Shown here piece by piece: positions 17,819 to 42,673 of a stretch of 64,000 bases of DNA. Position 1 is the stretch's first letter. Each line of letters opens with the position of its first letter. Source of the DNA: Bacteroidales bacterium (lineage in GTDB: Bacteria; Bacteroidota; Bacteroidia; Bacteroidales; F082); the NCBI GenBank assembly GCA_017394865.1, contig JAFPWT010000007.1, positions 1-64,000 of the forward strand, given 5' to 3'. Position numbers and translations under genes: made by a program. The notes beneath the pieces are model-generated. The model was not told the origin of the DNA. It saw only the letters and a program-made list of their open reading frames with translations, and made no database searches.

Positions 17819-17837
17819 AGCTTTGTTTTTTTTTGAC

Positions 17838-17866
17838 AAAAAGTCCCCGCAGAGCAGGGACTTTTT
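17838..17866 (-). terminator. dnaN terminator
   Basis: AAAAAGTCCC (17838-17847) pairs with GGGACTTTTT (17857-17866); read on the minus strand the stem ends in TTTTT. It lies between dnaN and the caspase-like gene. Confidence 0.8.
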
Positions 17867-28084: not shown

Positions 28085-28178
28085 ACAAAAATAATTTGCT
28101 CCTAGAAAGAACCCCAAAAAACTTCCCTTAAAATGAAATATTTTTGAATCACTGCTTTTTGGTCGAATCTAGCACACA

Positions 28179-28298
28179 TTATATTAATTAATACATTTTA
28201 TTAATTTTATAATATCAAATCCAATAAAATAATTCAAAAAATACTTGCGTAGTGTAAATTTTTGAATTACCTTTGCAGAAAAATTAAAACAACAATCC
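28179..28298 (+). repeat. Duplicated upstream region of nuclease gene, copy 1
   Basis: About 120 bp, extremely A/T rich (ATTAATTAATACATTTTATT...), nearly identical to 41703-41821. Both copies end at the ATG of an Rpn nuclease gene and contain a -33 like CTTG (28244-28247) and a -7 element (28268-28275) at the same spacing. Confidence 0.85.
28268..28275 (+). promoter_or_regulatory. -7 element for Rpn nuclease 1
   Basis: TACCTTTG, 20 bp downstream of a -33-like CTTG at 28244-28247; the same arrangement is seen before nuclease 2. Confidence 0.75.
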
Positions 28299-29189
28299 AT
28301 GGAAAAAGACAGTAACTGCATCCGCTTCGACTGGGCGGCAAAATACATCCTCCGCAACAAAGCCGACTTCGTCATCCTCGAAGGACTGGTCTCCACTGTC
28401 ATCGGTGAAAAGGTAAGCATCGTCGAACTGCTCGAAAGCGAGAGCAACCAGAAAACCAAGGACGACAAGTTCAACCGCGTCGACATCAAGGCCAAAAACA
28501 GCAAAGGCGACATCATACTCGTCGAGGTCCAACAGACCACCGAACTCTATTTCCTCCAGCGCGTCCTCTACGGAGTGGCCAAGACCATCACCGAGCACAT
28601 CAAGCTTGGCACCCAATACCAAAACGTCAAGAAAGTGTATTCCATCAACATCCTGTATTTCGACTTCGGGGAAGGCGACGACTACCTTTACCACGGAAGT
28701 AACTCCCTTATCGGCGTCAACACCGGCGACCAACTCAAAGTGACCGCCGACGAATTGCAAGGTATTAATACGGTCTTGTCCGAGAAAGTATTTCCCGAGT
28801 ACTATCTGCTACGTGTGGAAAAATACGACAAGGAAGAGGCGCATTCAGACCGCGAGGAGTGGATGTGCTATTTGAAATGGGGCTACATCAACCCCAGAAC
28901 CAAGGCGCACGGACTGAAGGAAGCGTACGAACGATTGCACGAACTGAAGATGAGCCCCAAGGAACGGAAAGCCTACGAGAACCACCTGGAAACGCTCATG
29001 TACCAAGACAGCGTGCTCGGCGCGGCACGACGCGACGGACGGATCGAAGGACGGGCTGAGGGACGGCTGGAGGGACGACTTGAGGGACGACTTGAGGGAC
29101 GAGCCGAAGAACGCGAGGAAATTGCAGCAAAAATGCGCAAAGCTGGTCTTGACGAAGAGACCATCAAAAGGATTATTGAGACGCGGTGA
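28299..29189 (+). CDS. Rpn family recombination-promoting nuclease / putative transposase (copy 1)
   Basis: A 296-residue protein of the PD-(D/E)XK nuclease-transposase group (PDDEXK_2-like). The nuclease core is visible in residues about 15-90: FDWAAKYILR, then E...L, then RVDIKAKNSKGDIILVEVQQT, carrying the D...ExQ catalytic pattern. A helical region with EYYLLRVEKYDKEEAH and LKWGYINP follows. The C-terminus is a charged helix with (R-x-E-G) repeats encoded by 12-bp tandem repeats, ending MRKAGLDEETIKRI. The paralogue at 41822 shares roughly three quarters of the residues. Family members promote RecA-independent recombination in E. coli; that role here is inference. Confidence 0.9.
   Translation: MEKDSNCIRFDWAAKYILRNKADFVILEGLVSTVIGEKVSIVELLESESNQKTKDDKFNRVDIKAKNSKGDIILVEVQQTTELYFLQRVLYGVAKTITEHIKLGTQYQNVKKVYSINILYFDFGEGDDYLYHGSNSLIGVNTGDQLKVTADELQGINTVLSEKVFPEYYLLRVEKYDKEEAHSDREEWMCYLKWGYINPRTKAHGLKEAYERLHELKMSPKERKAYENHLETLMYQDSVLGAARRDGRIEGRAEGRLEGRLEGRLEGRAEEREEIAAKMRKAGLDEETIKRIIETR
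29049..29109 (+). repeat. 12-bp tandem repeats in nuclease C-terminus
   Basis: Five 12-bp units encode R-(I/A/L)-E-G repeats; two adjacent units (29074-29085 and 29086-29097, GACGACTTGAGG) are perfect copies. The paralogue at 41822 has only the first two units, so the array has changed in length. Confidence 0.8.
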
Positions 29190-29855: not shown

Positions 29856-30701
29856 TTATGGTTTGGCATCTTGGACGAGGCGGACGGAAAGACCCCAATG
29901 ATAGTCTGCTCCTTCTGGTCGAACATCGGTTTGATGAAAATACAGGCTACGGGCTTTTTCAATGTAAGTTGAGGACCAGTAACGCCCAAAACCGTTGACA
30001 TAGTTCACCGTATTGTCTTCACGAATTCCCGCACAAGGCAGAAACACCACGCCATTGGCTTCCAAAACATTGCTCCAATCAGCCATAGAGATATAGTTGC
30101 TTTCGTATCCGCCTTCCGCGTCATTGATGGCATTTAAGGCGTATGTGGCCGTGCTCCATCCGTCAGGAAGGAGCAAGAGGCCACGCACGTTGTTAACGGT
30201 GGCTTTGGCAAAACGCGAGCCGCTGCGGCTGTTGACGATATACCCCCATTCATCAATGGTGAGCAGGTGCCACAAACCCGCTTGGTTGCCGCCGTTGGAG
30301 ATGGCATTGTTCAGGCCCCAGTCGTATTTCGTACCAGTGATGCTATTGGCTTCCATACTGTAATCGGTGAGCCAAGGCTTGACATCGTTATAGCCGCTGG
30401 TACCCCAGCCGAACAAATCCACCCAGCCCTGATAGAACAGGCTGATGTTGCTATTACTATTGCCGATACAGTCGTACTGTTGCTCTGCAAAACGCCAAGT
30501 GTCCGTTGAGGCTTGATATTGCAAGTTGCCCTGCGAGAAACGTACCTGCTTGCCGTTGTCTACTGAGAACACACCCGAAAGGCTGCCTTCGGTTTGTTGT
30601 GTGTCTCCATTGCCATTTCCATTATCTCCATTGTCCTTCTTACAGGCCGTAAACACAGCAAGCAGCAGGCACAAACCTAATGTAAACCATTTTGTTTTCA
30701 T
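29856..30701 (-). CDS. Surface lipoprotein Z'-A with lectin-like FISUMP-type domain
   Basis: A 281-residue lipoprotein: MKTKWFTLGLCLLLAVFTAC, with lipobox FTAC and a lysine-rich CKKDNGDN start of the mature protein. From about residue 42 it has the domain shared with Z-A and Z-B: GVFSVDNGKQVRFSQGNLQYQ, TDTWRFAEQQ, GWVDLFGWGTSGY, NNAISNGGNQAGLW, then GRYWSSTY and a C-terminal GLSVRLVQ. This order resembles the Fibrobacter succinogenes major paralogous / DUF1566 group with a C-type-lectin fold. There are no fibronectin-like repeats. It sits after a strong hairpin (30721-30757), so its expression may depend on read-through from cassette A. Confidence 0.8.
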   Translation of the reverse strand: MKTKWFTLGLCLLLAVFTACKKDNGDNGNGNGDTQQTEGSLSGVFSVDNGKQVRFSQGNLQYQASTDTWRFAEQQYDCIGNSNSNISLFYQGWVDLFGWGTSGYNDVKPWLTDYSMEANSITGTKYDWGLNNAISNGGNQAGLWHLLTIDEWGYIVNSRSGSRFAKATVNNVRGLLLLPDGWSTATYALNAINDAEGGYESNYISMADWSNVLEANGVVFLPCAGIREDNTVNYVNGFGRYWSSTYIEKARSLYFHQTDVRPEGADYHWGLSVRLVQDAKP

Positions 30702-30720
30702 ACCATTTTGAGTTTTATCG

Positions 30721-30757
30721 GAAAGTCAAGGAGGGCTTTCTTCCCTCCAAGACTTTC
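30721..30757 (-). terminator. Hairpin between Z-A and Z'-A
   Basis: GAAAGTC (30721-30727) pairs with GACTTTC (30751-30757), and GGAGGG (30730-30735) with CCCTCC (30743-30748). No long T run follows on the minus strand, so it may be a partial terminator or an mRNA-stabilising stem. Confidence 0.65.
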
Positions 30758-30770
30758 ATAGGTTTAAGAA

Positions 30771-32888
30771 TTAGTAGTTTTGCACAAGGCGGACGGAACA
30801 GCCATAATATCTAGGTGGATATGAATAGCTAGATAATTCAAAAGCACCTGCAGTCCCATTGTTATCATACCATCTACACCAATAATAGGAAGTATAAGTA
30901 TCATACCTCATCCCCCCATATTCGTAACGGTAACCTGCATTTGGCAAAAACACAGCTCCAGCGTTTTCCATTATTTCCCATTCTTCAATACTATAAGTAT
31001 TGATGTCATAATTGCCAGCACTTCCCAAGAAAGACACGCCCTCTGGCAATATCCAAGCGTCTGGCAAAATAATCTTTCCTTGAACACCATTTACAGTACC
31101 ATCTGATTGCAAATACGCGTGATTCTGTCTGCTATTAACTATATAATAAATGTCTCCACCTCCCGTTCTCCACAAACCTGCTTCATTACCTCCATTGCTA
31201 ATGGCATTGTAAACGCCCCAGTCCATGTTGATATAATCACCTTCCATGGAGTAATTGGCATATTCACCATCCCAATAACCATAACCATAGCCATTCACGG
31301 TCCATCCCGTATTTTCAGTGTCCCAAGGTTGATAATAATGATTATTGTTATTCCAACCTGAAGTGGCCCAGCCAAAGAGGTCAATCCAGCCGGAATAGGA
31401 TTGAGAAATCTCATTGTTACTACATTTCACACCGCTTTCATAAACATTTCCGTATTCTTCTCCATAATTATTACTACCGCCCACATAATCCCACTGGTGT
31501 TCAGCAAAGCGCCAAGTGCCAGTAGAGGCTTGGTATTGCAGATTGCCCTTCGAGAAGAACACTTGCTGCGTCTCACTGATGGAGAACAAAGCGGGAATAG
31601 CACCTTCAGGAGCGGTATTCGGGTGTGGTGAGGTGGTGAATGTCACTTCATTACCGTAAGCTACGCCCGCTTCGTTAGCGGCAAAGGCACGGACATAATA
31701 CGTGGTGTTTCCGTACAGGTATGACATGCGGCATTCAAACGAACCCATTCCTCCTCCTGCGGTGAGGGTGTTGTTGTAAATGGTGGGATTGTGAGAAGTG
31801 CTCCAGCAGATACCACGACGCAGGATGTCGAGGCCTCCATCGGCCACCACCTCGCCGCCGCCCATGGCATAGAAGTGGTTGAAGTCGGTCACTTCGTAGG
31901 TGATCACTTCAGGCAGGTAGGTCTCATCGGCGGTTACAAAGCTCACCTCGTTGCCGTAGGCGTAGCCTTCGTTGTTCTTGGCGTAGGCGCGTACATAGTA
32001 AGTCGTCAGCATCTCCAGTCCCGACATGCGGCATTGGAACAGGCCCAGACCTTCGCCGCCTGCCACCTTGTAATCGAACACGGTAGGCTCTTGGTGTGTG
32101 GCATAGCAGATGCCCCTTTCGGTCACCTCGGCAAAACCGTCATTGAGCACATTACCACCGCAAACTGCCGTATTGATGGTGATATCAGACACTTCATCAG
32201 TCGTCACTGTGGCCAGCATGGGATGTTCCACGGTGCGCATCGTGACCACCTCGCCATAGCTCGTTCCCTCGCTGTTGGTGGCAAAAGCGCGGATATAGTA
32301 GGTAGTGGCGTTGGTAAGGTTGGTCATCTCACAGGTGAAGCGGCCGATGCCCGTTCCAGCACGGCGGATGGAATCCGACAAGGTGGGGTTCTCATAGATA
32401 CTATAGCAGATGCCACGCTCCGTGACGGCCGAGCCGCCATCGTTGATGACATTGCCTTCCACTGTAGCCGTTATCATCGTGATGTTGTCCACACCAACGG
32501 TTTCAACAGTCGGTTTGTCTTGCTGGGCGGAAGTGGTGAAATTGAAAATCTCAGTCCACATCAAATTGTAGCCATTGTAGAACTCATACCGATAATAATA
32601 CTTGGTACTCTTTTCAAGGTAGTTGATTTGAGTCACCCATTTGTCACCCACTTGTTCCAATTTTGAGGTCTGGGCATACTTCAACTGGTCATCTTCGCAA
32701 TAGACCAGCAAAGCTTTGGTAATTTCGTTGAGGTATTCGTATTCGCATTCGAAATACGCTTGGGTCGAGCCAATGGTCTTCACCTCGTTTTCGACGGTTA
32801 CCAGTTCCACATTGACTTCCTCGGCTTTTTTGCCGCAACTCACGAAGGCGAGCATTGCCGCCAGAATGATAAAATGTAGTTTCTTCAT
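30771..32888 (-). CDS. Surface lipoprotein Z-A: fibronectin-like repeats plus lectin-like domain
   Basis: A 705-residue lipoprotein (MKKLHFIILAAMLAFVSC, lipobox FVSC). After an N-terminal Ig-like segment (about 25-125) come three ~95-residue fibronectin-like repeats (about 128-400), each with the pattern G(E/G).V.(N/A)DGG...(T/L)(E/R)RGIC(Y/W)(S/A)T...NPT and TTYY(V/I)RA(F/Y)A.N..G.(A/S)YG. The C-terminal ~280 residues are the lectin-like domain: QVFFSKGNLQYQASTGTWRF, GWIDLFGWATSGW, AISNGGNEAGLW, ending YGCSVRLVQNY. It has more repeats than its paralogues (0 or 1). Third gene of cassette A, 29 bases after gene Y-A. Confidence 0.82.
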   Translation of the reverse strand: MKKLHFIILAAMLAFVSCGKKAEEVNVELVTVENEVKTIGSTQAYFECEYEYLNEITKALLVYCEDDQLKYAQTSKLEQVGDKWVTQINYLEKSTKYYYRYEFYNGYNLMWTEIFNFTTSAQQDKPTVETVGVDNITMITATVEGNVINDGGSAVTERGICYSIYENPTLSDSIRRAGTGIGRFTCEMTNLTNATTYYIRAFATNSEGTSYGEVVTMRTVEHPMLATVTTDEVSDITINTAVCGGNVLNDGFAEVTERGICYATHQEPTVFDYKVAGGEGLGLFQCRMSGLEMLTTYYVRAYAKNNEGYAYGNEVSFVTADETYLPEVITYEVTDFNHFYAMGGGEVVADGGLDILRRGICWSTSHNPTIYNNTLTAGGGMGSFECRMSYLYGNTTYYVRAFAANEAGVAYGNEVTFTTSPHPNTAPEGAIPALFSISETQQVFFSKGNLQYQASTGTWRFAEHQWDYVGGSNNYGEEYGNVYESGVKCSNNEISQSYSGWIDLFGWATSGWNNNNHYYQPWDTENTGWTVNGYGYGYWDGEYANYSMEGDYINMDWGVYNAISNGGNEAGLWRTGGGDIYYIVNSRQNHAYLQSDGTVNGVQGKIILPDAWILPEGVSFLGSAGNYDINTYSIEEWEIMENAGAVFLPNAGYRYEYGGMRYDTYTSYYWCRWYDNNGTAGAFELSSYSYPPRYYGCSVRLVQNY

Positions 32889-32917
32889 GTTAATATAAAT
32901 ATTTATTTGTTATTCAA

Positions 32918-33805
32918 TTATTTAGTAAACCTAAAGCCGAGACCCAAGCGAGCCTCAAAAACATGGAAATTGGTGGTCACTCCATCGAGTGTCATCACAA
33001 AGCGGTTCATGTCGAGAAGCAATCCCGCACCGACATCCACACCATGAGCGGAGAAGCCGTCATTGGTGACATAATCACCTTCCCAAAGCTGCCAGGCCAC
33101 GGAACGCATCCCATAGCCCACGCCCGCCTTGGCATACAATCCTTCGCTCAGCTGCATGATGCCGCCTGCCATACCTGAGACCGCACTGATTTTGCTAACC
33201 CTTTCAGGATTGTAGAATGGCAGTATTTCACCGATGTAGCCATCTTTTTTGCAATGGTCAACTACCTGATAGCCCATATAATCGAAATCCAGCCCCGTCA
33301 TCAGGGTCACATACCAGCCGAGCCTGTCGTACATTCCGACTGTAAAGCCCACCATCGGGATGCCTGAGCTGTTATACGAGCCGTCAATGGTGGCAAAGAA
33401 TTTCATGCTTCCGCGATAGTCGCCCGGCCGAAAGCCCGACAGCCTGTTTCTTCCCTTGGGGACCTTGGAGGAGCCGTTGGCTGATTCCTCTTTGGTAATG
33501 AACTTGAATCGAATCTCTGGATAATCTCCATAGCCCAGATCCTTGAACGCCTGCCATCGGATGATTTTGTTCTTTCCTGCAGGCACGACCTTGTTGACAT
33601 TACCGGTCACCTTCATCGTGTCGGTGTAGTGCAGGCCGTCGTCCAATGAAATCAGCAGTTTCACTTCGGAGCGCACCTTCAAATCGTACTTGATGGTCAC
33701 TGTTTTGTCCTCCTGTTTGGCGCGGATGTTCGTCACATGGTCCTGCGCCTCGGCCATCTGAAGGCCCATGAAAAGGCATATGGTGAATAGGGCTATCTTT
33801 CTCAT
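32918..33805 (-). CDS. Cassette A gene Y: Ig-like domain plus probable outer-membrane barrel
   Basis: A 295-residue exported protein (MRKIALFTICLFMGLQMAEA). Residues about 21-105 form an Ig-like beta domain (DHVTNIRAKQEDKTVTIKYDL, LISLDDGLHYTDTMKV, IIRWQAFKDLGYGDYPEIRFKF) that is very close to gene Y-B (roughly 86 % by eye). The rest is strand-rich with Gly/aromatic alternation (GFTVGMYDRLGWYVTLMTGL... YAKAGVGYGMRSVAW... FEARLGLGFRFTK) and fits an eight-stranded outer-membrane barrel; this part differs strongly from Y-B. The start overlaps the stop of gene X-A by four bases (ATGA), so X and Y are translationally coupled. Confidence 0.75.
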   Translation of the reverse strand: MRKIALFTICLFMGLQMAEAQDHVTNIRAKQEDKTVTIKYDLKVRSEVKLLISLDDGLHYTDTMKVTGNVNKVVPAGKNKIIRWQAFKDLGYGDYPEIRFKFITKEESANGSSKVPKGRNRLSGFRPGDYRGSMKFFATIDGSYNSSGIPMVGFTVGMYDRLGWYVTLMTGLDFDYMGYQVVDHCKKDGYIGEILPFYNPERVSKISAVSGMAGGIMQLSEGLYAKAGVGYGMRSVAWQLWEGDYVTNDGFSAHGVDVGAGLLLDMNRFVMTLDGVTTNFHVFEARLGLGFRFTK

Positions 33806-34575
33806 GGCTTCTTGGTTTTTTCAGGTTCAACATCGGCGAAGGCCCCGTGTATGGTCATCTCCACCGAAACGCGGCGGTAGCCTCCACCCTTCTCCTTGTT
33901 CTCCACCGCAAAGCTCTGGAAAGCATTCTCCGTGTGCTTCAGCGGCTCCACTTCCGTTTTCAGGAAATGCTCCACGCCCTGGGTGCGCAGGAAGGCCAGC
34001 TGACCGTTGGTGGTCACGCCCGTCTTCTGGGTCACCGTCATCTTGAAGGGAGCTCCGTTCAAGGTGATGGCCTTGTCGGTAAAGTCGCCATACTCGCCCA
34101 GATAGGCTATCTTCGAGCGTATGGGCGTACCGTCGGTGGCGCCCGTGATCTTCACATCGACCTTGGTCCCTTGCTTCAGGAACTCCAAAAGGTCGTTCTC
34201 CATCTTGTTCTTGAGGAAGTTGCACATCAGCATACAAGCGTTGGAGTTCTGGATGGTGTACTTGCCGAGGGCATAGTCGTCGGCCGCATCGGCCACAACG
34301 AGGGTCTCGTAGGCCACAGCGATGACAAGGTTGTCGTCTTGGACATCGGTCTGAACCTCGATCTTCACGTTGTCGGAGACCAGCCCCTCTCGCATCTGTT
34401 CAAGTTCCTCCTGCCAGTTGCGCTGGCGTTCTTCGTTGTCCTGTTGGATCTGAACCTTGGTCTTCTCCTTTTTCAGGTACTGGTAGTGGAATCGTCCCGA
34501 GACCGTCTCGACTTCCTGCCCGAAACTCAACGCGGACAGGAATATTAAAACTGTTGCTAGTAGAAATTTTCTCAT
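33802..34575 (-). CDS. Cassette A gene X: exported protein of unknown function
   Basis: A 257-residue protein, not recognised. Signal peptide MRKFLLATVLIFLSALSFGQ. The mature N-terminus is a charged coiled-coil-like helix (YLKKEKTKVQIQQDNEERQ...WQEELEQMREGL). It is followed by IEVQTDVQDDNLVIAVAYETL, an SNACMLMCNFLKNKMENDLLEFL helix, and a C-terminal part (NGQLAFLRTQGVEHFL..., GGGYRRVSVEMTIHGAF) faintly like OmpA-type C-terminal domains. It equals its cassette B counterpart in length, and the mature parts are about 94 % identical. First protein gene after the leader; overlaps gene Y by ATGA. Confidence 0.78.
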   Translation of the reverse strand: MRKFLLATVLIFLSALSFGQEVETVSGRFHYQYLKKEKTKVQIQQDNEERQRNWQEELEQMREGLVSDNVKIEVQTDVQDDNLVIAVAYETLVVADAADDYALGKYTIQNSNACMLMCNFLKNKMENDLLEFLKQGTKVDVKITGATDGTPIRSKIAYLGEYGDFTDKAITLNGAPFKMTVTQKTGVTTNGQLAFLRTQGVEHFLKTEVEPLKHTENAFQSFAVENKEKGGGYRRVSVEMTIHGAFADVEPEKTKKP

Positions 34576-34666
34576 TTTTTTCAGTTTGTTATGAAACATT
34601 TCACTTTTTCCGCTACATACAAAAAGAAAGCGGGGTATCTTTCAATACTTGTTGTTTCGTTTGGTC

Positions 34667-34825
34667 CTAGGAAACCTCTCCAATAACAAGCATGTCAGAT
34701 ACCCACGCTTTAATACGTGGGCCTCTGCCTTTGCTTTGTTTTCGATTGGAGTTATTGAATTTCCTAGGTTCAACGAAACCAAAAACAAGCGTTGGCAAAC
34801 GCCTTCTTCTCAATATGTAGGCCAT
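34667..34825 (-). CDS. Small basic leader ORF, copy A (52 residues)
   Basis: A 52-codon frame within the leader, starting MAYILRRRRLPTLVFGF and ending SDMLVIGEVS. It is strongly basic (RRRR near the N-terminus; NNSNRKQSKGRGPRIK in the middle). The copy in leader B encodes exactly the same peptide; the only base difference inside the frame is a synonymous GGC/GGT change, while differences cluster just after the stop. A two-codon frame (ATG-CCC-TAA, 34838-34830) precedes it, and leader B has ATG-CCT-TAA at the same place. Whether it is translated is unknown; it may instead be a by-product of RNA conservation. Confidence 0.5.
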   Translation of the reverse strand: MAYILRRRRLPTLVFGFVEPRKFNNSNRKQSKGRGPRIKAWVSDMLVIGEVS

Positions 34826-34845
34826 GCTTTTAGGGCATGACGGGA

Positions 34846-34853
34846 CAAAGGTA
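34846..34853 (-). promoter_or_regulatory. -7 element for cassette A
   Basis: Minus-strand TACCTTTG at the outer edge of leader A. It predicts a ~265-nt untranslated or leader-ORF-containing 5' region before gene X-A. Confidence 0.7.
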
Positions 34854-34961
34854 GTTATTAAATAGCTAAAAAACAAATCATAACATGAAAAAAGACACAG
34901 CTTTTTCTCTTGAAAAGAAGAGTACATAAAATATAACACCGTTTGGCTGACGCAACGACAG

Positions 34962-36140
34962 ATGGCTGAACTATTTGGAAAGAGCCAGTCTTCTATCGCA
35001 CGACAAATTGGAATAGTATTCCGAAATGATGGACTGGACGAGAAAAGTAATATGCAAGTTTTGCATAATACTCTTTCAAAATTTAAACCGACAAAAATAT
35101 ACAACCTTGAGGTCGTCATATCGGTGGGTTACCGTGTCAAATCCCAGCGCGGTTTACAACTAAAGCAATGGTTTGAACAATATCTATTGGAAACAAAGAA
35201 GGAATTGACACCATCTGTTACACACAACCAACTCATTGATATTCAAGATAGTTATGGCGAAATTGTCTTGTATCAACCTGATGACGCCATCAGTCTGGAA
35301 GTGCGCATGGGAGACGAAACAGTTTGGTTGACACGGGGTCAAATCATAGAACTTTTTCAATCCAGCAAGGCCAATATCAGCGAGCATATAAAGAACATTT
35401 ATGAGCAGGGGGAGTTGAATTATGAGGCAACTGTTCGGAATTTCCGAACAGTTCAACAGGAAGGTGATAGGATGGTTGAGCGCATACGGACCTATTACAA
35501 TCTAGATGCCATAATCTCTGTAGGATTTAGGGTGAATGCCAGACGAGGTATCAAGTTCCGTCAATGGGCTAACGTCGTCATCAAGAATTACATCATCCGT
35601 GGATATGCCATCAACCAACAATTACTTAATGTGGAACGACACATTGATGCTCGACTCGACAGCCAACAAAGCCAGATCCGACAGATAGAAACGACCCTTT
35701 CCGACCATCAGGAAAAGATCGACTTTTTTGTGCGAACTTCGTTGCCACCGGTTGAAGGGGTCTTTTACGATGGGCAGATTTTCGACGCCCACGTACAAAT
35801 CTCAGGGCTCATAAAACAGGCCAAAAACCGAATTGTGTTGGTTGACAATTATATTGATGAAACAACGTTAACCCTGCTCAACAAACGGGCTGCCAATGTG
35901 GATGCCACCATCTATACTCGTCCGTTGTCGCAACAACAGCAACTCGACGTGCAACGGAACAACCAACAATATTCCCCAGTCACTTTGAATATCTGTCAGA
36001 GAACGCATGACAGATTCCTAATCATCGACGATGATGTATATGCTTTCGGTGCCAGTCTGAAGGATGCGGGAAAGAAACTCTTCGCCTACATCAAGATGGA
36101 AGAAACCTCGGCGGCAGAATTGCTAGGCCTAATCGGGTGA
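34962..36140 (+). CDS. RhuM-type protein with doubled DNA-binding domain and PLD-like C-terminus; N-terminus frameshifted
   Basis: From the internal ATG the frame has 392 residues. Residues 1-80 are an N-terminally cut RhuM-like domain (MAELFGKSQSSIARQI..., YNLEVVISVGYRVKSQRG). Residues about 98-215 are a second, complete copy (EVRMGDETVWLTRGQIIELF, NISEHIKNIYEQGEL, YYNLDAIISVGFRVNARRG). The C-terminal ~120 residues (FDAHVQISGLIKQAKNRIVL, HDRFLIIDDDVYAFGASLKD) look like the phospholipase-D-like tail seen in ORF6N/RhuM proteins. Upstream, the missing part (TVWLTQRQ) is encoded in frame from 34914, and an ATG at 34885 in another frame would join it if one A were added to the AAAA run at 34913-34916. 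So the gene is frameshifted, or starts at 34962. Confidence 0.75.
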   Translation: MAELFGKSQSSIARQIGIVFRNDGLDEKSNMQVLHNTLSKFKPTKIYNLEVVISVGYRVKSQRGLQLKQWFEQYLLETKKELTPSVTHNQLIDIQDSYGEIVLYQPDDAISLEVRMGDETVWLTRGQIIELFQSSKANISEHIKNIYEQGELNYEATVRNFRTVQQEGDRMVERIRTYYNLDAIISVGFRVNARRGIKFRQWANVVIKNYIIRGYAINQQLLNVERHIDARLDSQQSQIRQIETTLSDHQEKIDFFVRTSLPPVEGVFYDGQIFDAHVQISGLIKQAKNRIVLVDNYIDETTLTLLNKRAANVDATIYTRPLSQQQQLDVQRNNQQYSPVTLNICQRTHDRFLIIDDDVYAFGASLKDAGKKLFAYIKMEETSAAELLGLIG

Positions 36141-36200
36141 CAACCGATGTATTTATCTCCAACTCCACATTTTGAGGGAGAATGTGAGAATTCCTGATCA

Positions 36201-36651
36201 TTAAAACACAAAATCTATTCTCAACTGGTTGGTTCGTGCTGATTTCAACGGCAGATAGTAGAACGCGCGGTATTCTTCCCTGCCTTTGATGACATTGACC
36301 AAGCCCAGACTCATCGTGACTTGAACACCCAATCTTTTATAGAATTGATATCCCATCCCGAAATCCACAGACATGTCGAACCGGTTTGGTTGAAGGTAAT
36401 CAGCAAGGCGGCGACCAATGATATAGAACAGCCGTAATAATAGCCTCAGGGGGCCTTATCTGTTGATAATCATCTTTCGTTGCCAGTGAATACCATCCCG
36501 TACCCATGCCCACATGGAAACGAACTCGTAACGGTCGTCTTTCAGCTAACTTTTGAGAATCATCCTGCTCTTGAGCCGCCAACGGAATGGAAACAGCCAA
36601 CAAGAGAGCTGGAAATAAAAGTAAGAAACTAGTTTTAAGGCAACTTCTCAT
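36201..36651 (-). pseudogene. Decayed outer-membrane beta-barrel protein gene
   Basis: The 5' part (36651 down to about 36430) encodes a signal peptide (MRSCLKTSFLLLFPALLLAV...) and RVRFHVGMGTGWYSLATKDDY. The frame is then lost and closes at 36400. In another frame, from about 36440 to a TAA at 36203-36201, the sequence reads LADYLQPNRFDMSVDFGMGY, QFYKRLGVQVTMSLGLVNVI, and ends NQLRIDFVF, a typical barrel C-terminus with terminal Phe. The two parts together are much shorter than a normal barrel of this type, so an internal deletion plus a frameshift is the simplest explanation. It lies just outside the 3' end of cassette B. Confidence 0.75.
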
Positions 36652-36732
36652 AATATATTTAGATGGAAAGGTTTTAACATTTAATTCAGATTACAAGTTA
36701 GTATTAACAATAGGATTTTGTCTTTTCCAGAA

Positions 36733-36790
36733 AAAGTTGCCGGACGAGGTTGGGTGGCGCACTCCCGCGCGCACCCCGACCAGCAACTTT
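36733..36790 (-). terminator. Cassette B terminator hairpin
   Basis: AAAGTTGC (36733-36740) pairs perfectly with GCAACTTT (36783-36790), with further inner pairing of GGGTGGCGC (36752-36760) and GCGCACCC. On the minus strand the stem is followed by TTTTTC. It lies about 40 bases past the stop of lipoprotein Z'-B. Confidence 0.75.
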
Positions 36791-36829
36791 CTCGCCCATG
36801 CCCGTGCCAGTAACGAACAAGAGTTAGTT

Positions 36830-38134
36830 CTAGGGTGCAGAACGCACTGGACGGACAGTATCGCCGTAGCGCCGGTCGCCGTGGTAGCCCACACCGTAGT
36901 AACCCGAATCGATGTAGAAGTACCAAGCGCTGTTCGGCCAGTCGGTGTAGAGCGAACTCGACCAGTAGTAACCCTTACTGCCTGCGTAGTGGGGCTCATC
37001 GTTCCATTGGTCACCAGCGGCGGGCAGGAAGAGACTGTTGCCGTTGCTCGCAGTGAAGCGGCGCCCGTTAACACCATTCTGAGTCGTCCAAGTGCAAGTG
37101 GTGTTCTGATAAAGTTCCGTCCATTCGGCATCGGTTGGCATGCGCCATCCATTGCCCCAGTTGACCGTGGCGGCATCATCTTCGGGTAGCAAAGAGGTCA
37201 GGTCATCAGTGAATCCGTTGTAGCCTGAACTGGCATCATTGCAGTATTTGGTCAACTGGTTGATGTCTCCGTTGCAATATTTGTACGTGCTCCAGTTGTA
37301 AGTGGTCTTCGGCGTAGTCTCTCCCCATGCGAAATAATCGCCGTATTCCTCAGGGGCGTTGGCACCCACATTGCAGGTAGCCCAAAGCGTCCCACTCGGC
37401 AGGCCAAGATCAACGTATTCGTGTTCACCAGAGCCGCCACCTTGAAGCGTAGTAAACTCAATATCTTGCCCATACGCTGCGCCTGCCACATTGGTAGCAT
37501 AGGCGCGAACATGATAAGTGGTATTGGCTTCCAAATTAGTCATTGATGCAAAAAAATGACCAATTCCAGCACCAACGGCAACATGGCTGTCATCCAAAGT
37601 AGGATTAGCGTTTGTACTCCAGCAAATACCAAACTCAGTTACTGTCGCACCACCGTCATTGATCACATCACCTCCGCATCGAGCGGAATTTGCTGTTATC
37701 TCCGACACTTCCGCTGTGGTGACTGTGGGCAATTCAGCGACAGGTGGTTCCGGCGCATCAATAACCTGTGTATGGAAAGTCTTCTGCGGCGTATTGAAGG
37801 CATCCCCGCCATTTGGATATAGCTCATAGTAGTACCAATAAAGCGTGTCCTTCAACAGGTCGTTGAGTGTAAGTTCAAACAAGGTTTCATTCTTTGTCAT
37901 TTCGGCGGCGGCAAACTGCTGGGCGCTGCCGTTGGCATTGGCTGGACAATAACGAAACACCACTTTGCTAAACTCCGAAATATCCGCTGGTATGTATTTC
38001 ACATGGACATCCTTCATGCCCACCGTTACGAGTTCGTCATTGCCATCCCCAATTTCAGGATGGACTTCTTTGCTCTTGGTGCAGGAAATCATCGCCACCA
38101 AGATACATGCTAATATGATTGATAGTCTTTTCAT
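36830..38134 (-). CDS. Surface lipoprotein Z'-B: one fibronectin-like repeat plus FISUMP domain
   Basis: A 434-residue lipoprotein (MKRLSIILACILVAMISC, lipobox MISC). An N-terminal Ig-like segment (about 25-125) is followed by one fibronectin-like repeat (about 135-230: VINDGGATVTEFGICWSTNANPT, NTTYHVRAYATN). The C-terminal domain begins EYVDLGLPSGTLWATCNVGA and continues YFAWGETTPK, WGNGWRMPTDAEWTELY, GYYWSSSLY and ends GDTVRPVRSAP. That is the classic Fib_succ_major/DUF1566 lectin-fold signature and is different from the C-terminal domain of Z-A, Z'-A and Z-B. The start overlaps the stop of Z-B by four bases (ATGA). Confidence 0.86.
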   Translation of the reverse strand: MKRLSIILACILVAMISCTKSKEVHPEIGDGNDELVTVGMKDVHVKYIPADISEFSKVVFRYCPANANGSAQQFAAAEMTKNETLFELTLNDLLKDTLYWYYYELYPNGGDAFNTPQKTFHTQVIDAPEPPVAELPTVTTAEVSEITANSARCGGDVINDGGATVTEFGICWSTNANPTLDDSHVAVGAGIGHFFASMTNLEANTTYHVRAYATNVAGAAYGQDIEFTTLQGGGSGEHEYVDLGLPSGTLWATCNVGANAPEEYGDYFAWGETTPKTTYNWSTYKYCNGDINQLTKYCNDASSGYNGFTDDLTSLLPEDDAATVNWGNGWRMPTDAEWTELYQNTTCTWTTQNGVNGRRFTASNGNSLFLPAAGDQWNDEPHYAGSKGYYWSSSLYTDWPNSAWYFYIDSGYYGVGYHGDRRYGDTVRPVRSAP

Positions 38135-39735
38135 TTTGTTTTATTTTGAGGGACTATATCTTGGACGAGACGGACAGAATGTCCATAACAACGATCTGAA
38201 TGCCATAATACGTCAAGAGTATACTCTTGTGCATCTTCCGCAAAAACAATACTATATGCACCATAATAACTAAAGCAAGTAGCTGACCAATAGCCACCAA
38301 ATGTATTCCAACTGACCATCCAAGTCCCACGACGACCAAGTGCAGCGGGAAAGAATATAGCACCTGCATCCTCTAATGTATTCCATTGGTCTAAACTTAT
38401 CACATTACTACTGAAACTTACTCCGCTTTGGTTAGGGCAGTTTGGATTATAGGTACTTGTACTCCAATTGTCAGGGAATAAAACTACACCATTAATTATT
38501 CCATAGTCTGGAATTGTTATCTGGGCCTTTGCATAGCGTATGTCCGAAATGATGTTACGATTGTTAATTACATGATACCATTCCTCTCCCGTCAAAACAC
38601 GCCATTGGTGGTTTTGGTTGCCTCCATTGCTCATTGAATTGTAATAGCCCCAGTCGTAATTAGCCGAACCATCAGTCAAGTTGGATGAAGTTTCGTTCGT
38701 CGAAGGTCCATAACCATAAAAATTATAAATCATTGTGGTATCATATGTTTCAGAAATAGACCATGGCTGATAGTTCACATTGTATGGATCGCTTGGATTA
38801 TGATAGCCGCTTGTTCCCCATCCGAATAAATCTATCCAACCAGTATAAGATGACGAAATCTGTTGGTTATTGCATTTTACTTCATTCTCAAACACTGTAC
38901 CATATGTTGCATTACCAACAAAATCCCATTGATGTTCCGCAAACCTCCAAGTATTCGTAGAAGCCTGATATTGTAAATTCCCTTGCGAGAAATACACCTG
39001 GTCGCCATTCTCGTTGATGGTAAACAAGCCGTTGATGGCTCCTTCGGGAGCCCCACTACCGCCACCGACAATTGTTGTGAATTCCTTATCCAAACCGTAA
39101 GCAGTGCCCTTCTCATTGGTGGCATAGGCACGAACATGATAGGTGGTATTTGAGTCCAGATTATCCATTGCTGCGGTGAAAGTACCTGTTCCAGCTCCCG
39201 ATGCAATGTGGTTGTCGTTCAATGTTGGATTCGCATTAGTGCTCCAGCAGATACCACGCTCGGTCACTTCGGTGCCACCGTCATTAGTGACTTCGCCGCC
39301 ACCCTTGGCGGAATTTGTGGTAATTTCGGTTACCTCGGCGGTCACTACGGTAGGCAAGGTTACTGTCGTTGACGAAGCCTCTGTCTTGAAAGCCTTCACC
39401 GCTGACTTCATGGAATTGAAACCATTAACAAACTCATAGTAATAGCTGTAAGTAGTGTTCTCCTTTAAGCCCGTAAGTTCCACATAGAGGGTTTTCTGAA
39501 CCACGCTCATCTCGGCGACATTCATGTCGACCGCATCCTCACCTTCGCCGTAATAAAGGAAAGCTTTCTTAAGAGTGGCGATGTATTCGTAATCACACTG
39601 AATGGTGGCCGTGGTGGGGCCTACGGTGATTAGGTCACGCTCCACGTCAACGTATTCCTTGTTTACTTCGGGGACTTTCTTGCAGGCAGCCATAGCCACC
39701 AACAAAGCCAGTATCAATATGCTTATCTTTTTCAT
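38131..39735 (-). CDS. Surface lipoprotein Z-B: one fibronectin-like repeat plus lectin-like domain
   Basis: A 534-residue lipoprotein (MKKISILILALLVAMAAC, lipobox MAAC, then KK). The start is 39735, with earlier in-frame codons discarded because they overlap gene Y-B. It has an N-terminal Ig-like segment, one fibronectin-like repeat (about 125-225: VTNDGGTEVTERGICWSTNANPT, NTTYHVRAYATNEKG), and a C-terminal lectin-like domain matching Z-A (QVYFSQGNLQYQASTNTWRF, GWIDLFGWGTSGY, SNGGNQNHQWRVL, GHSVRLVQ). Lower G+C in the C-terminal half than in the neighbouring X and Y genes hints at exchange. Coupled to Z'-B by ATGA. Confidence 0.84.
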   Translation of the reverse strand: MKKISILILALLVAMAACKKVPEVNKEYVDVERDLITVGPTTATIQCDYEYIATLKKAFLYYGEGEDAVDMNVAEMSVVQKTLYVELTGLKENTTYSYYYEFVNGFNSMKSAVKAFKTEASSTTVTLPTVVTAEVTEITTNSAKGGGEVTNDGGTEVTERGICWSTNANPTLNDNHIASGAGTGTFTAAMDNLDSNTTYHVRAYATNEKGTAYGLDKEFTTIVGGGSGAPEGAINGLFTINENGDQVYFSQGNLQYQASTNTWRFAEHQWDFVGNATYGTVFENEVKCNNQQISSSYTGWIDLFGWGTSGYHNPSDPYNVNYQPWSISETYDTTMIYNFYGYGPSTNETSSNLTDGSANYDWGYYNSMSNGGNQNHQWRVLTGEEWYHVINNRNIISDIRYAKAQITIPDYGIINGVVLFPDNWSTSTYNPNCPNQSGVSFSSNVISLDQWNTLEDAGAIFFPAALGRRGTWMVSWNTFGGYWSATCFSYYGAYSIVFAEDAQEYTLDVLWHSDRCYGHSVRLVQDIVPQNKTK

Positions 39736-39748
39736 GATCATTCGGTTT

Positions 39749-40579
39749 TTAACGGTTCTCAAAACTATATCCCAGTCCAATCTTACCTTCGAAAATCTTG
39801 AAGTTGGTGGTCACGGCATCCAGCGAGAGGACGAAGCCGCCGAAGCGGAACATCAAGCCTGCCGACACGTCCACGCCCACGGCAGAATAACCACCATTAC
39901 GCACCCAGCGGTCGTCGAGGGTCTTCCATGACAGCGAGCGGTTACCAAAGCCCAAACCAGCTTTGAGGTACATGACATCGTTCAAGCACATCACGCCACC
40001 CCCCATGATGGATAGGGCGGTGTGGGCGTATTCGTCCTTGTAGAACGGAAGGTCCTCACCGACAAAACCGTTCTCGTCGCTGGTAGCCGCAGGAAACAAT
40101 CCCCCGAAATGAAAGCCGCTCATCACCGAGGCAAACCATCCATATTTCTCAACTTGACCGATGGTAAAGCCCACCGAGGGATTCTGGGTGTTGGTATAGG
40201 CTCCGTTCAAGGTGACGAAAGTGATGTTAGGTATCCGTTTGATTTTCGGCTGTTGCTTTTCCTCTGTGATAAACTTGAAACGGATTTCGGGATAATCGCC
40301 GTAGCCCAAATCCTTGAAAGCCTGCCAACGAATGGTTTTGTTCTTTCCTGCAGGAATGACCTTGTTGACCATACCCGACACCTTCATTGTGTCGGTATAA
40401 TTCTGTCCGTCGTCGATGGATATGAGCAGCTTCACATCGGAACGAACACTGAGGTCGTATTTGATGGTCACCATCTTGTCCTCCTGTTTGGCTCGGATAT
40501 TCGTCACATGGTCCTGCGCCATGAGGGCCTGCGCTCCCATGAGCAGCAGGATGGTCGCTAGTATTATTCTCGTCTTCAT
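39749..40579 (-). CDS. Cassette B gene Y: Ig-like domain plus probable outer-membrane barrel
   Basis: A 276-residue exported protein (MKTRIILATILLLMGAQALMA). Its N-terminal Ig-like domain (DHVTNIRAKQEDKMVTIKYDL, LISIDDGQNYTDTMKV, TIRWQAFKDLGYGDYPEIRF) is close to Y-A, but the strand-rich C-terminal ~170 residues (VGFTIGQVEKYGWFASVMSGF, YLKAGLGFGNRSLSW, FEGKIGLGYSFENR) share only short barrel-like signatures with it. The ATG overlaps the stop of gene X-B by four bases, and lipoprotein Z-B starts 13 bases after its stop. Confidence 0.75.
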   Translation of the reverse strand: MKTRIILATILLLMGAQALMAQDHVTNIRAKQEDKMVTIKYDLSVRSDVKLLISIDDGQNYTDTMKVSGMVNKVIPAGKNKTIRWQAFKDLGYGDYPEIRFKFITEEKQQPKIKRIPNITFVTLNGAYTNTQNPSVGFTIGQVEKYGWFASVMSGFHFGGLFPAATSDENGFVGEDLPFYKDEYAHTALSIMGGGVMCLNDVMYLKAGLGFGNRSLSWKTLDDRWVRNGGYSAVGVDVSAGLMFRFGGFVLSLDAVTTNFKIFEGKIGLGYSFENR

Positions 40580-41349
40580 GGCTTCACAGGTTTTTCCGGT
40601 TCAACATCTTTGAATGCATCGTGGATGGTCATCTCCACCGAAACGCGGCGGTAGCCTCCACCCTTCTCTTTGTTCTCCACCGCAAAGCTCGCAAACGTAT
40701 TCTCTGTGTGCTTCAGCGGCTCCACTTCCGTTTTCAGGAAATGCTCCACACCCTGGGTGCGCAGGAAGGCCAGCTGACCGTTGGTGGTCACGCCTGTCTT
40801 CTGCGTCACCGTCATCTTGTAGGGTGCACCGTTCAGCGTGATGGCCTTGTCGGTGAAGTCGCCGTACTCGCCCTGGTAGGCAATCTTCGAGCGTATGGGC
40901 GTGCCGTCGGTGGCACCTGTGATCTTCACATCCACCTTGGCACCTTGTTTCAGGAACTCCAAGAGGTCATTCTCCATCTTGTTCTTGAGGAAGTTGCACA
41001 TCAGCATACAAGCGTTGGAGTTCTGGATGGTGTACTTGCCAAGGGCATAGTCATCGGCCGCATCGGCCACAACGAGGGTCTCGTAGGCCACAGCGATGAC
41101 GAGGTTGTCGTCTTGGACATCGGTCTGAACCTCGATCTTCACGTTGTCGGAGATCAGCCCTTCTCTCATTTGTTCAAGCTCTTCCTGCCAGTTGCGCTGG
41201 CGCTCCTCGTTGTCCTGTTGGATCTGTTCTTTTGTCTGTTCCTTTTTCAGGTACTGGTAGTGGAAACGTTCTGAGACCGTTTCCACCGTCTGGCCGAAAC
41301 AAAGCACAGACAGCAGGGCAAGACATGTTAGGAATAAAAATCTTTTCAT
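40576..41349 (-). CDS. Cassette B gene X: exported protein of unknown function
   Basis: A 257-residue protein, not recognised, with signal peptide MKRFLFLTCLALLSVLCFGQ. The signal peptide differs freely from that of X-A, while the mature protein is about 94 % identical with the same length (roughly 13-15 scattered substitutions counted by eye). The layout is the same: a charged N-terminal helix, a beta region, an SNACMLMCNFL helix with two Cys, and the C-terminal GGGYRRVSVEMTIHDAF segment. Start 41349 was preferred because upstream in-frame codons fall in the leader. Confidence 0.78.
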   Translation of the reverse strand: MKRFLFLTCLALLSVLCFGQTVETVSERFHYQYLKKEQTKEQIQQDNEERQRNWQEELEQMREGLISDNVKIEVQTDVQDDNLVIAVAYETLVVADAADDYALGKYTIQNSNACMLMCNFLKNKMENDLLEFLKQGAKVDVKITGATDGTPIRSKIAYQGEYGDFTDKAITLNGAPYKMTVTQKTGVTTNGQLAFLRTQGVEHFLKTEVEPLKHTENTFASFAVENKEKGGGYRRVSVEMTIHDAFKDVEPEKPVKP

Positions 41350-41438
41350 ATTGCGCGTTTTTTTGAAACATTTCACTTTTTCCGTTACATACAAAAAGAA
41401 AGCGGGGTATCTTTCCTCACTTGTCGCTTCGTTAGGTC

Positions 41439-41597
41439 CTAGGAAACCTCTCCAATAACAAGCATGTCAGATACCCACGCTTTAATACGTGGGCCTCTAC
41501 CTTTGCTTTGTTTTCGATTGGAGTTATTGAATTTCCTAGGTTCAACGAAACCAAAAACAAGCGTTGGCAAACGCCTTCTTCTCAATATGTAGGCCAT
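41439..41597 (-). CDS. Small basic leader ORF, copy B (52 residues)
   Basis: Same 52-residue peptide as in leader A (MAYILRRRRLP... to ...VIGEVS), identical at every residue, with one synonymous third-position change. It is too short to be found by ordinary gene calling. Its stop codon lies 89 bases before the ATG of gene X-B and inside the closing stem of the predicted fold, so its translation would open the stem. Confidence 0.5.
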   Translation of the reverse strand: MAYILRRRRLPTLVFGFVEPRKFNNSNRKQSKGRGPRIKAWVSDMLVIGEVS

Positions 41598-41619
41598 GCT
41601 TTTTTAAGGCATGACGGGA

Positions 41620-41627
41620 CAAAGATA
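41620..41627 (-). promoter_or_regulatory. -7 element for cassette B
   Basis: Minus-strand TATCTTTG at the outer edge of leader B, in the same position as in leader A, though the two inner bases differ (AT/AC). Confidence 0.7.
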
Positions 41628-41702
41628 AAACTTCTTTCTGGAAAAAACAAATTAAGATAGATCAAAAACAACTTCTATTTTTTTGACTAAACTCAGTATA
41701 CC

Positions 41703-41821
41703 TTATATTAATTAATACATTTTATTAATTTTATAATACTAAATCCAATAAAATAATTCAAAAAATACTTGCGAAGTATAATTTATTAATTTATCTTTGC
41801 AGAAATTTTAAAACAGAAACC
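41703..41821 (+). repeat. Duplicated upstream region of nuclease gene, copy 2
   Basis: Counterpart of 28179-28298: the same A/T-rich block, a -33-like CTTG at 41768-41771 and a -7 element 20 bp later. Sequence from 41628 to 41702 is A/T rich and holds nothing recognised. Confidence 0.85.
41792..41799 (+). promoter_or_regulatory. -7 element for Rpn nuclease 2
   Basis: TATCTTTG, 22 bases before the ATG at 41822. Confidence 0.75.
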
Positions 41822-42673
41822 ATGGAAAAAGACAGCAACTGCATCCGCTTCGACTGGGCGGCAAAATACATCCTCCGCGACAAAGCCGACTTCATCATCC
41901 TCGAAGGGTTTGTTTCAGCCATCCTGGACGAGAAGATCACCATCACCGAGCTCCTGGAAAGCGAAAGCAACCAAAAAGAAAAAGACGACAAATACAACCG
42001 CGTTGATATCAAGGCAAAAAACGGCAAGGGCGATATCATCCTTATCGAGATCCAGCAAAGCACCGAACACTATTTCCTTCAGCGTGTCCTCTTCGGCATG
42101 GCCAAAACCATTACCGAACACTTCAAGCTTGGCGAACACTATAACAACGTGAAGAAAGTCTATTCTATCAACATCCTCTATTTCGACTTTGGCAAAGGAG
42201 ACGACTACCTCTACCACGGGTATAACACGCTTGTAGGAGTCAACACAGGCGACCAACTCAAAGTCACCGCCACAGAGCGTCAGGGCATTAAGACCTTCCT
42301 CTCCGAGAAAATCTTCCCCGAGTATTACATTCTCAGAGTTGAAAAGTTCGACAAAGAAGAGGCACATTCTGCCCGCGAAGAATGGATGCGCTACCTGAAT
42401 TGCGGCTATATCGATCCAAACACCACAGTACACGGCCTACACGAGGCATATGAAAGATTGCAGGAGTTGAAGATGACCGTTGGGGAACGCAAAGCCTATG
42501 AGAAACACCTGGAAAACATTTCGTATCAGATCAGCGTGCTTGACTCGGCTCGAATCGACGGGCGAATCGAAGGACGGGCTGAAGGAAAAAACGAAGCGTA
42601 CGAGGAAATCATAGAGCGCATGCGCAAAGCTGGTCTCGACGAAGAAACCATCCGACAAATTACAAGAACTTAA
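41822..42673 (+). CDS. Rpn family recombination-promoting nuclease / putative transposase (copy 2)
   Basis: A 283-residue paralogue of the gene at 28299, colinear throughout. The nuclease core is intact: FDWAAKYILRDKADF, RVDIKAKNGKGDIILIEIQQS. The middle region has the same EYYILRVEKFDKEEAH and LNCGYIDP segments. The C-terminus (GRIEGRAEGKNEAYEEIIERMRKAGL..., ending TIRQITRT) has two RxEG units instead of five. No inverted repeats or target-site duplications were found around either copy, so neither looks like part of a complete transposon. Confidence 0.9.
   Translation: MEKDSNCIRFDWAAKYILRDKADFIILEGFVSAILDEKITITELLESESNQKEKDDKYNRVDIKAKNGKGDIILIEIQQSTEHYFLQRVLFGMAKTITEHFKLGEHYNNVKKVYSINILYFDFGKGDDYLYHGYNTLVGVNTGDQLKVTATERQGIKTFLSEKIFPEYYILRVEKFDKEEAHSAREEWMRYLNCGYIDPNTTVHGLHEAYERLQELKMTVGERKAYEKHLENISYQISVLDSARIDGRIEGRAEGKNEAYEEIIERMRKAGLDEETIRQITRT

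Follow-up and report, generated by a model that had tools for sequence, protein, structure and literature searches.

The stretch of DNA analysed here, hereafter the window, comprises 64,000 nucleotides of contig JAFPWT010000007.1 (positions 1 to 64,000, assembly GCA_017394865.1) from an uncultured Bacteroidales genome that is 73% complete. Its reverse strand carries two parallel cassettes, A (34853-29856) and B (41627-36830), in each of which a TAnnTTTG promoter box, recognised by inspection of the sequence, and a structured leader RNA precede four genes that we call X, Y, Z and Z'. An earlier, sequence-only reading of this DNA had described the cassettes as a conserved base with exchangeable surface domains. 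Its coordinates, gene order and open reading frames (ORFs) agree with ours, as does the promoter that it had found to be common to A and B; overall, its observations were confirmed in part and its interpretation is supported in part.

In cassette B the promoter box (41620..41627) is followed by the leader (41378..41582), by X (40576..41349), predicted to be exported and with a weak OmpA-like core, and by Y (39749..40579), in which sequence and tree indicate an Ig-like domain and a C-terminal barrel-like domain of type B. Z (38131..39735), recognised by its lipobox, would be a lipoprotein with an N-terminal domain for which we have coined the label 'Zn', one fn3-like repeat and a head of the GNLQYQ type, and Z' (36830..38134) another, with a Zn domain, one fn3-like repeat and, by profile search, a head resembling Lcl_C/FISUMP. 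Cassette A has the same layout: promoter box (34846..34853), leader (34606..34810), X (33802..34575), Y with an Ig-like and a type A barrel-like domain (32918..33805), Z with a Zn domain, three fn3-like repeats and a GNLQYQ-type head (30771..32888), and Z' (29856..30701), a lipoprotein reduced to a GNLQYQ-type head that a hidden Markov model (HMM) of the Lcl head also matches (E 9.8e-5). The repeat numbers (three and none in Z and Z' of A, one and one in B) fall within the range of 0 to 3 reported earlier.

A structured leader RNA with two alternative pairings

The leader is a structured RNA of about 205 nt with strong covariation and a conserved secondary structure. The region 41358-41620 folds at -91 kcal/mol (z -7.0), a stability reached by none of 200 shuffled sequences. 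An alignment of 18 copies contains 51 consensus pairs, 18 of which are changed on both sides, and such double changes occupy 87 cells of the alignment, as against 27.2 in shuffles, a signal that collapses when the structure is slid along the sequence. When 46 matches were realigned the count rose to 526 cells against 148.4 in shuffles, a figure that leans towards structure because this alignment was fitted to the model. The element had previously been taken for an ORF identical in both cassettes; the two copies are 96% identical over 246 nt, but as a structured RNA and not as a gene, and the start codon and frame are kept in only 3 of the 18 copies. A scan of the window with Rfam 15 returned only 5S rRNA, a partial copy of which lies at the window edge (1-80), and Rfam 15 gave no match to the leader, either in the leader region down to E 1 or at 14 loci with copies, no family reaching its gathering threshold. 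A larger subtype, with an extra stem of about 80 nt at the apex, was seen at eight loci (L068, L070-L072 and L074-L077).

The RNA folds as a long rod closed by a helix, P1, in which the 5' sequence AAGAAGGCG pairs with the 3' sequence CGCUUUCUU. The conserved 3' tail, GAUACCCCGCUUUCUUUUU in the window and CCCACGCUUUUUU or similar in distant copies, is complementary both to the 5' end and to the 3' strand of the apical hairpin, and its alternative pairing with the apical arm GCGUGGGUAUC yields a GC-rich stem followed by U's that resembles an intrinsic terminator. Although the arm-tail pairing is not included in our covariance model, arm and tail coevolve: a copy's own arm-tail pairing was stronger than the mean of swapped pairings in 20 of 23 copies of a first set (0/2000 permutations) and in 28 of 29 copies of a second (0/5000 permutations), near-identical copies having been excluded from both. 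P1 and the arm-tail pairing both have support from coevolution.

Searches with the covariance model R1, which scores the window copies at 228.6 (B) and 228.9 bits (A), both copies being part of the model, were evaluated at E 0.001. Owing to strict filters and the scoring of at most eight candidates per genome, counts among relatives are lower bounds: the leader was found in at least 90 of 297 related genomes, of which 74 belong to the genus (counting the source genome) and 16 to other genera of the order. As a specificity control, 147 further genomes drawn across the phylum gave a match in one, those listed being labelled as the same class and not the same order; E-values of R1 are rough, and the antisense strand of this palindromic element itself scores 18-30 bits. 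By BLASTN, matches occur in 22 of 99 genus genomes, mostly away from X, and the source genome has a third copy upstream of a gene that we read by eye as S-adenosylhomocysteinase.

The position of the leader relative to genes is regular. In a first set of 39 copies a sense ORF (ATG start, at least 60 codons, within 160 nt downstream) was present in 32, against 9 in the antisense control, and a further 39 copies, chosen by score from the listed hits and blind to context (several listed hits in the same score range were not included, and a fortieth region, L231, was dropped as the same copy as L152), gave a sense ORF within 160 nt in 35. In the first set, 26 of the 39 copies have a TAnnTTTG box in the 120 nt ahead of them, where shuffles give an expectation of 5.1. 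The products encoded downstream, named by eye, are diverse and include X, S-adenosylhomocysteinase, small helix-turn-helix proteins and many lipoproteins and exported proteins. A simple rule classes 43 of 65 products as resembling signal-peptide or transmembrane proteins and finds a lipobox in 16 of 65, compared with 26 and 2 of 65 background ORFs, which may include spurious frames. The small helix-turn-helix-like proteins recur as first genes both in the genus and outside it (L061, L062, L063, L080, L218 and L221). Tandem leader pairs about 115 nt apart occur at L065 (1817-2011 and 1499-1702) and L083 (1195-1394 and 1509-1707).

A dispersed, multicopy and palindromic sequence, in some loci tandem, that recurs behind the same upstream genes with differing genes downstream could be a mobile hairpin, similar to a miniature inverted-repeat transposable element (MITE) or a repetitive extragenic palindrome (REP), landing in promoters by chance. 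We hold this to be very improbable: the sense orientation, the short distance to the gene, the promoter box, the compensatory changes across diverged copies and the coevolution of arm and tail speak for a regulatory RNA, and neither 50,697 phage records nor 72,556 plasmid records contained a match to copy B. The promoter box at most copies, the terminator-like tail and the presence of several copies per genome would equally suit an independent small RNA that ends at the U-tract and acts in trans, with the downstream genes as bystanders. This explanation seems quite improbable to us, as same-strand genes mostly start within 160 nt downstream in both sets and the conserved alternative partners of the 3' strand would be superfluous for a pure terminator. 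We prefer a leader that acts in cis on the genes behind it.

Barrel, lipoprotein and the gene ahead of them

X was detected in 24 of 199 relatives. Besides the source genome these are 20 further members of the genus and three genomes of other genera, whose matches are weak. The named records that carry X are Bacteroidales or Bacteroidia metagenome-assembled genomes, several of them from sheep, yak or water-buffalo gut. The source genome has two copies each of X and Y and no more. Neither protein matches a Pfam family above cut-off; comparison of X with OmpA (PF00691) by hhalign showed a weak resemblance, at a probability of 30-32% and a pairwise P of about 5e-4 over 27-28 columns, with a G.TD motif in register, and searches against PDB returned one chance-level match for X and none for Y. 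At the 20 further X loci of the genus, a Y-related gene follows X in all 20 (overlapping it by ATGA in 14), the Y protein has the barrel in 18, and in the same 18 a Z lipoprotein comes next, one of them (L047) shortened. An outcome that would have refuted the earlier reading, X and Y occurring mainly without lectin-like lipoproteins, was not observed.

Of 199 genomes, 63 have a match to the Y profile, and 58 of these belong to the genus. Away from X loci the profile mostly hits the barrel, which there forms the C-terminal module of open frames some 200-890 aa long whose N-terminal parts are Ig-like, Ig plus FGE, or PEGA repeats (9/10 other forms scanned). From the listed Y-profile hits we selected 40 barrel loci away from X; L303 and L304 among them coincide with L260 and L255, two loci that had contributed to the HMMs. 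A Zn-domain lipoprotein immediately follows the barrel gene in 37 of the 40; one gene intervenes in L274 and two opposite genes in L303, and L294 has an FGE-type gene without a Zn domain. Judged from these gene orders, the pair of barrel and lipoprotein appears to be the constant core unit, the Y barrel a reusable module, and X neither the core of the system nor obligatory.

At 12 distinct Ig-barrel loci without X (L253-L260 and L265-L268), the gene directly upstream encodes in every case a caspase (PF00656 above cut-off) with SGHG or AGHG and DACFSG motifs, an intact His-Cys dyad and, by a simple rule, a signal-peptide-like N terminus. In two genomes (G069 and G001, loci L050 and L051) X is fused to a C-terminal caspase domain, while the X proteins of the window lack, by Pfam, a Peptidase_C14 (PF00656) domain with that dyad. 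Since X and the caspase share a position and fusions of the two exist, X on its own most likely derives from an X-caspase fusion by loss of the caspase domain, the reverse order of events being less probable. The sole PF00656 match in the source assembly is a caspase-domain protein at 15929-17839, about 12 kb away.

The lipobox cysteine is invariant in all 34 Z and Z' proteins examined, and their heads vary. Recognised families are Laminin_G_3, Lcl_C and FISUMP (two proteins each), LRR_5 (one) and FGE (in L050); for the commonest head, the GNLQYQ type, neither Pfam nor NCBIfam gave a head family at E 0.01. The head of Z'(B) scores below the curated cut-offs of both FISUMP (TIGR02145, 18.8 against 41.65 bits) and Lcl_C (PF07603, 26.7 against 34.9 bits), and Z(A), Z(B) and Z'(A) match neither at E 0.01. 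That the heads are exchangeable, as had been proposed from the two cassettes, is borne out across the genus by GNLQYQ-type, Lcl_C/FISUMP, LamG, BspA-LRR and FGE heads; of the conserved base itself, two deep types have X in common and, with less clarity, the Ig part of Y, but X is not obligatory.

Two rival explanations concern the proteins. Heads resembling Lcl_C/FGE-type folds, known targets of retroelements, might be varied by a diversity-generating retroelement. This is exceedingly improbable, and we rejected it: the source genome, at its 73% completeness, has no reverse transcriptase match, and of 21 reverse-transcriptase loci, the 12 that were inspected together with long flanking sequences showed no template/variable repeat with adenine bias. 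At one locus, L180 of genome G005, a Z'-like gene (4458-5249) lies about 1 kb upstream of a reverse transcriptase (6285), and no template/variable repeat was found there. The constant adjacency of barrel and Z, together with the co-segregation of barrel type and lipoprotein type throughout the genus, would also be expected if X and Y formed a dedicated machine for the delivery or assembly of Z lipoproteins rather than a receptor or display complex. We regard this as unlikely: the barrel domain, of about 165 residues, is too small for a translocation pore, and caspase partners would be unexpected in a secretion machine. A receptor or display unit, in which barrel and Z are probably cognate, suits these features better.

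Patchwork divergence between the cassettes

The identities first estimated by eye proved close to measured values: mature X, put at about 94%, is 94% identical between A and B (91% over the whole of X), the Ig part of Y, put at about 86%, is 88% identical, and the barrel of Y, said to be much less conserved, is 41% identical. What had been seen as a gradient from leader to surface protein, though, reflects recombination tracts. Synonymous divergence (pS) between the two X genes takes the values 0.59, 0.61, 0.15, 0.10, 0.41, 0.39, 0.13 and 0.20 in successive windows of 30 codons, a heterogeneity reached in 63 of 5000 codon permutations; in Y the values are 0.55, 0.70 and 0.34 over the first 90 residues and 0.6 to 1.0 thereafter, and in Z and Z' dS exceeds 3. 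X(A) is at least as near to the X of genome G023, which belongs to type B (dS 0.32), as it is to X(B) (dS 0.42). In trees of 19 sequences (L050, L051 and L052 left out), the A and B labels change six times for X, close to the shuffled mean of 5.3, twice for the Ig part of Y, and once for the Y barrel, with 100/100 support. In G023, the promoter and upstream stretch of A is joined to the body of B. The patches of pS, the mixing in the X tree, the single split of the barrel and the junction in G023 together suggest that the base is swapped by recombination, that barrel and lipoproteins move as a block, and that the gradient is a recombination mosaic.

Functional constraint alone, with purifying selection on the base, diversifying heads and no recombination, would account for one further observation, namely that X shows less nonsynonymous divergence (dN) than Z in 10 of the 11 comparisons made against other genomes (the exception being A against L049). 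It would leave unexplained the patchiness of synonymous divergence along X, the contrast between the X and barrel trees and the G023 junction, and dN of Z' is below that of X in four of five type-A comparisons. Constraint as the only cause therefore appears decidedly improbable. With recombination as the preferred cause, homogenisation of the near-identical leader-X-Ig stretch would leave one base that can be joined to different barrel and head modules.

The gene 3' of cassette B encodes 272 aa and is intact in G023; in the window, tblastn finds the pieces 1-83 and 206-272, and 36204-36651 (reverse strand) is a broken remnant of this gene without its middle part. Repeats that are 81% identical (28156-28579 and 41680-42102) bracket both cassettes and include Rpn/PD-(D/E)XK nuclease genes (28299-29189 and 41822-42673) and their upstream regions, the first gene having been assigned by family search. 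Such genes were considered as mobilisers; among the X loci fetched, they occur near the cassette only in the window and in G023 (21-24% identity), and L285 has another one 46 nt ahead of its barrel gene.

A putative switch and the unit behind it

The reading that we favour, and consider probable, is that an attenuator-like RNA controls a unit of outer-membrane barrel and lectin-like lipoproteins, each cassette being an operon in which a switch-like leader precedes an outer-membrane receptor or display unit. In its P1 state the leader would let RNA polymerase read on into X, Y, Z and Z', and in the arm-tail state it would stop the polymerase. From the architecture, X would be exported to the periplasm, in the position otherwise taken by an exported caspase; Y would combine a periplasmic Ig domain with a small C-terminal barrel in the outer membrane; and Z and Z' would carry a lipid anchor and lectin-like heads whose probable role is to bind glycans or other ligands outside the cell. 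Surface exposure, the formation of a complex, a ligand and termination by the leader are all elements that we infer.

Several findings weigh against this reading. When eight sequences were folded at full length, five of them, including both window copies, favoured the rod with P1 over the forced arm-tail fold by 11-16 kcal/mol (for the other three, no more than seven pairs were forced), so that read-through would be the default state and termination would need kinetics or a trans-acting factor; a loop of about 65 nt is, moreover, unusual for intrinsic termination. The leader precedes X in both cassettes of the source genome and, with strong scores, in G020 (226.8 bits) and G023 (223.8 bits), and intermediate matches were found at L049 (46.0 bits) and L038 (38.7 bits), with L041 (25.3 bits) at noise level. 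This amounts to strong matches at 2 of the 20 X loci outside the source genome and no leader at 15; among the 40 sampled barrel loci, two (L279 and L282) have the leader immediately before the barrel gene. Being so sparse at X and barrel loci, the RNA is not part of the protein system as such. On the protein side, the barrel, Ig and lectin folds were assigned from sequence and localisation was judged from hydrophobicity and lipobox alone; OMP_b-brl matched 1 of 19 Y proteins, at E 0.081, and the barrel tree carried long-branch warnings for L047 and L049. Z-like heads are also found away from the cassettes, without X or Y, on source contigs C2, C3, C4, C5, C7, C11, C15 and C16, the source genome having a total of 28 matched stretches when those of the window are counted.

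The leader shares with attenuator leaders and riboswitches with P1/terminator overlap (the cis-regulatory class of Rfam) its 5' position behind a promoter box, two potentially competing helices with a common 3' strand and a U-run after the terminator-like stem. It differs from them in matching nothing in Rfam 15 and in preceding heterogeneous genes, often for exported proteins, rather than those of one pathway. Candidate structured RNAs of Bacteroidetes have been described, among them Bacteroidales-1 (RF01693), Bacteroid-trp (RF01692) and Bacteroides-1 (RF01694), none of which gave a match at the leader; Bacteroides-2 and the GUCCY-hairpin have no Rfam number in that source's table and so fall outside this comparison (PMC2864571). 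HMP2_4205 and HMP2_1032 are palindromic Bacteroidetes candidates of 132 and 106 bp, predicted to be terminators near genes (PMC8040213), and the leader, likewise palindromic, is longer at about 205 nt, though it may overlap with them. In the literature that we searched, as far as accessible, nothing identical to the leader was seen, published candidates being compared by description and not by sequence.

Among the proteins, prokaryotic caspase homologues (PF00656) include metacaspase-FGE-sulfatase architectures (PMC3501461). The caspases found here resemble these in their intact His-Cys dyad and in the combination with FGE-type domains in Bacteroidetes, and differ in standing beside an Ig-barrel protein and lectin-like lipoproteins, with X replacing the caspase in the lineage of the window. 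Surface lipoproteins of the FISUMP, Lcl_C, LamG and BspA-LRR kinds supply the head domains of some Z and Z' proteins which, unlike other such lipoproteins, have an N-terminal domain in common and are linked to a barrel partner encoded upstream. A literature search found no matching description of a modular surface-lipoprotein system in rumen Bacteroidales and no publication pairing FISUMP with Bacteroidetes.

More tentatively, the leader may represent a new class of switch-like RNA in Bacteroidales that turns envelope genes on and off across a whole regulon. One branch of its targets would then be a signalling family of surface lectin, outer-membrane barrel and periplasmic caspase in which X has taken the place of the protease arm. 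The proteins seem to follow a rule in this uncultured genus, several of whose members come from the ruminant gut: a barrel is followed by a lectin-like lipoprotein, and a caspase or X stands ahead of Ig-type barrels. This arrangement could provide a route from a surface signal to a periplasmic protease, of which we know no described example and for which narrow literature searches gave none. If the leader is indeed a switch, it would constitute a large class of regulatory RNA in gut Bacteroidales without a match in Rfam 15.

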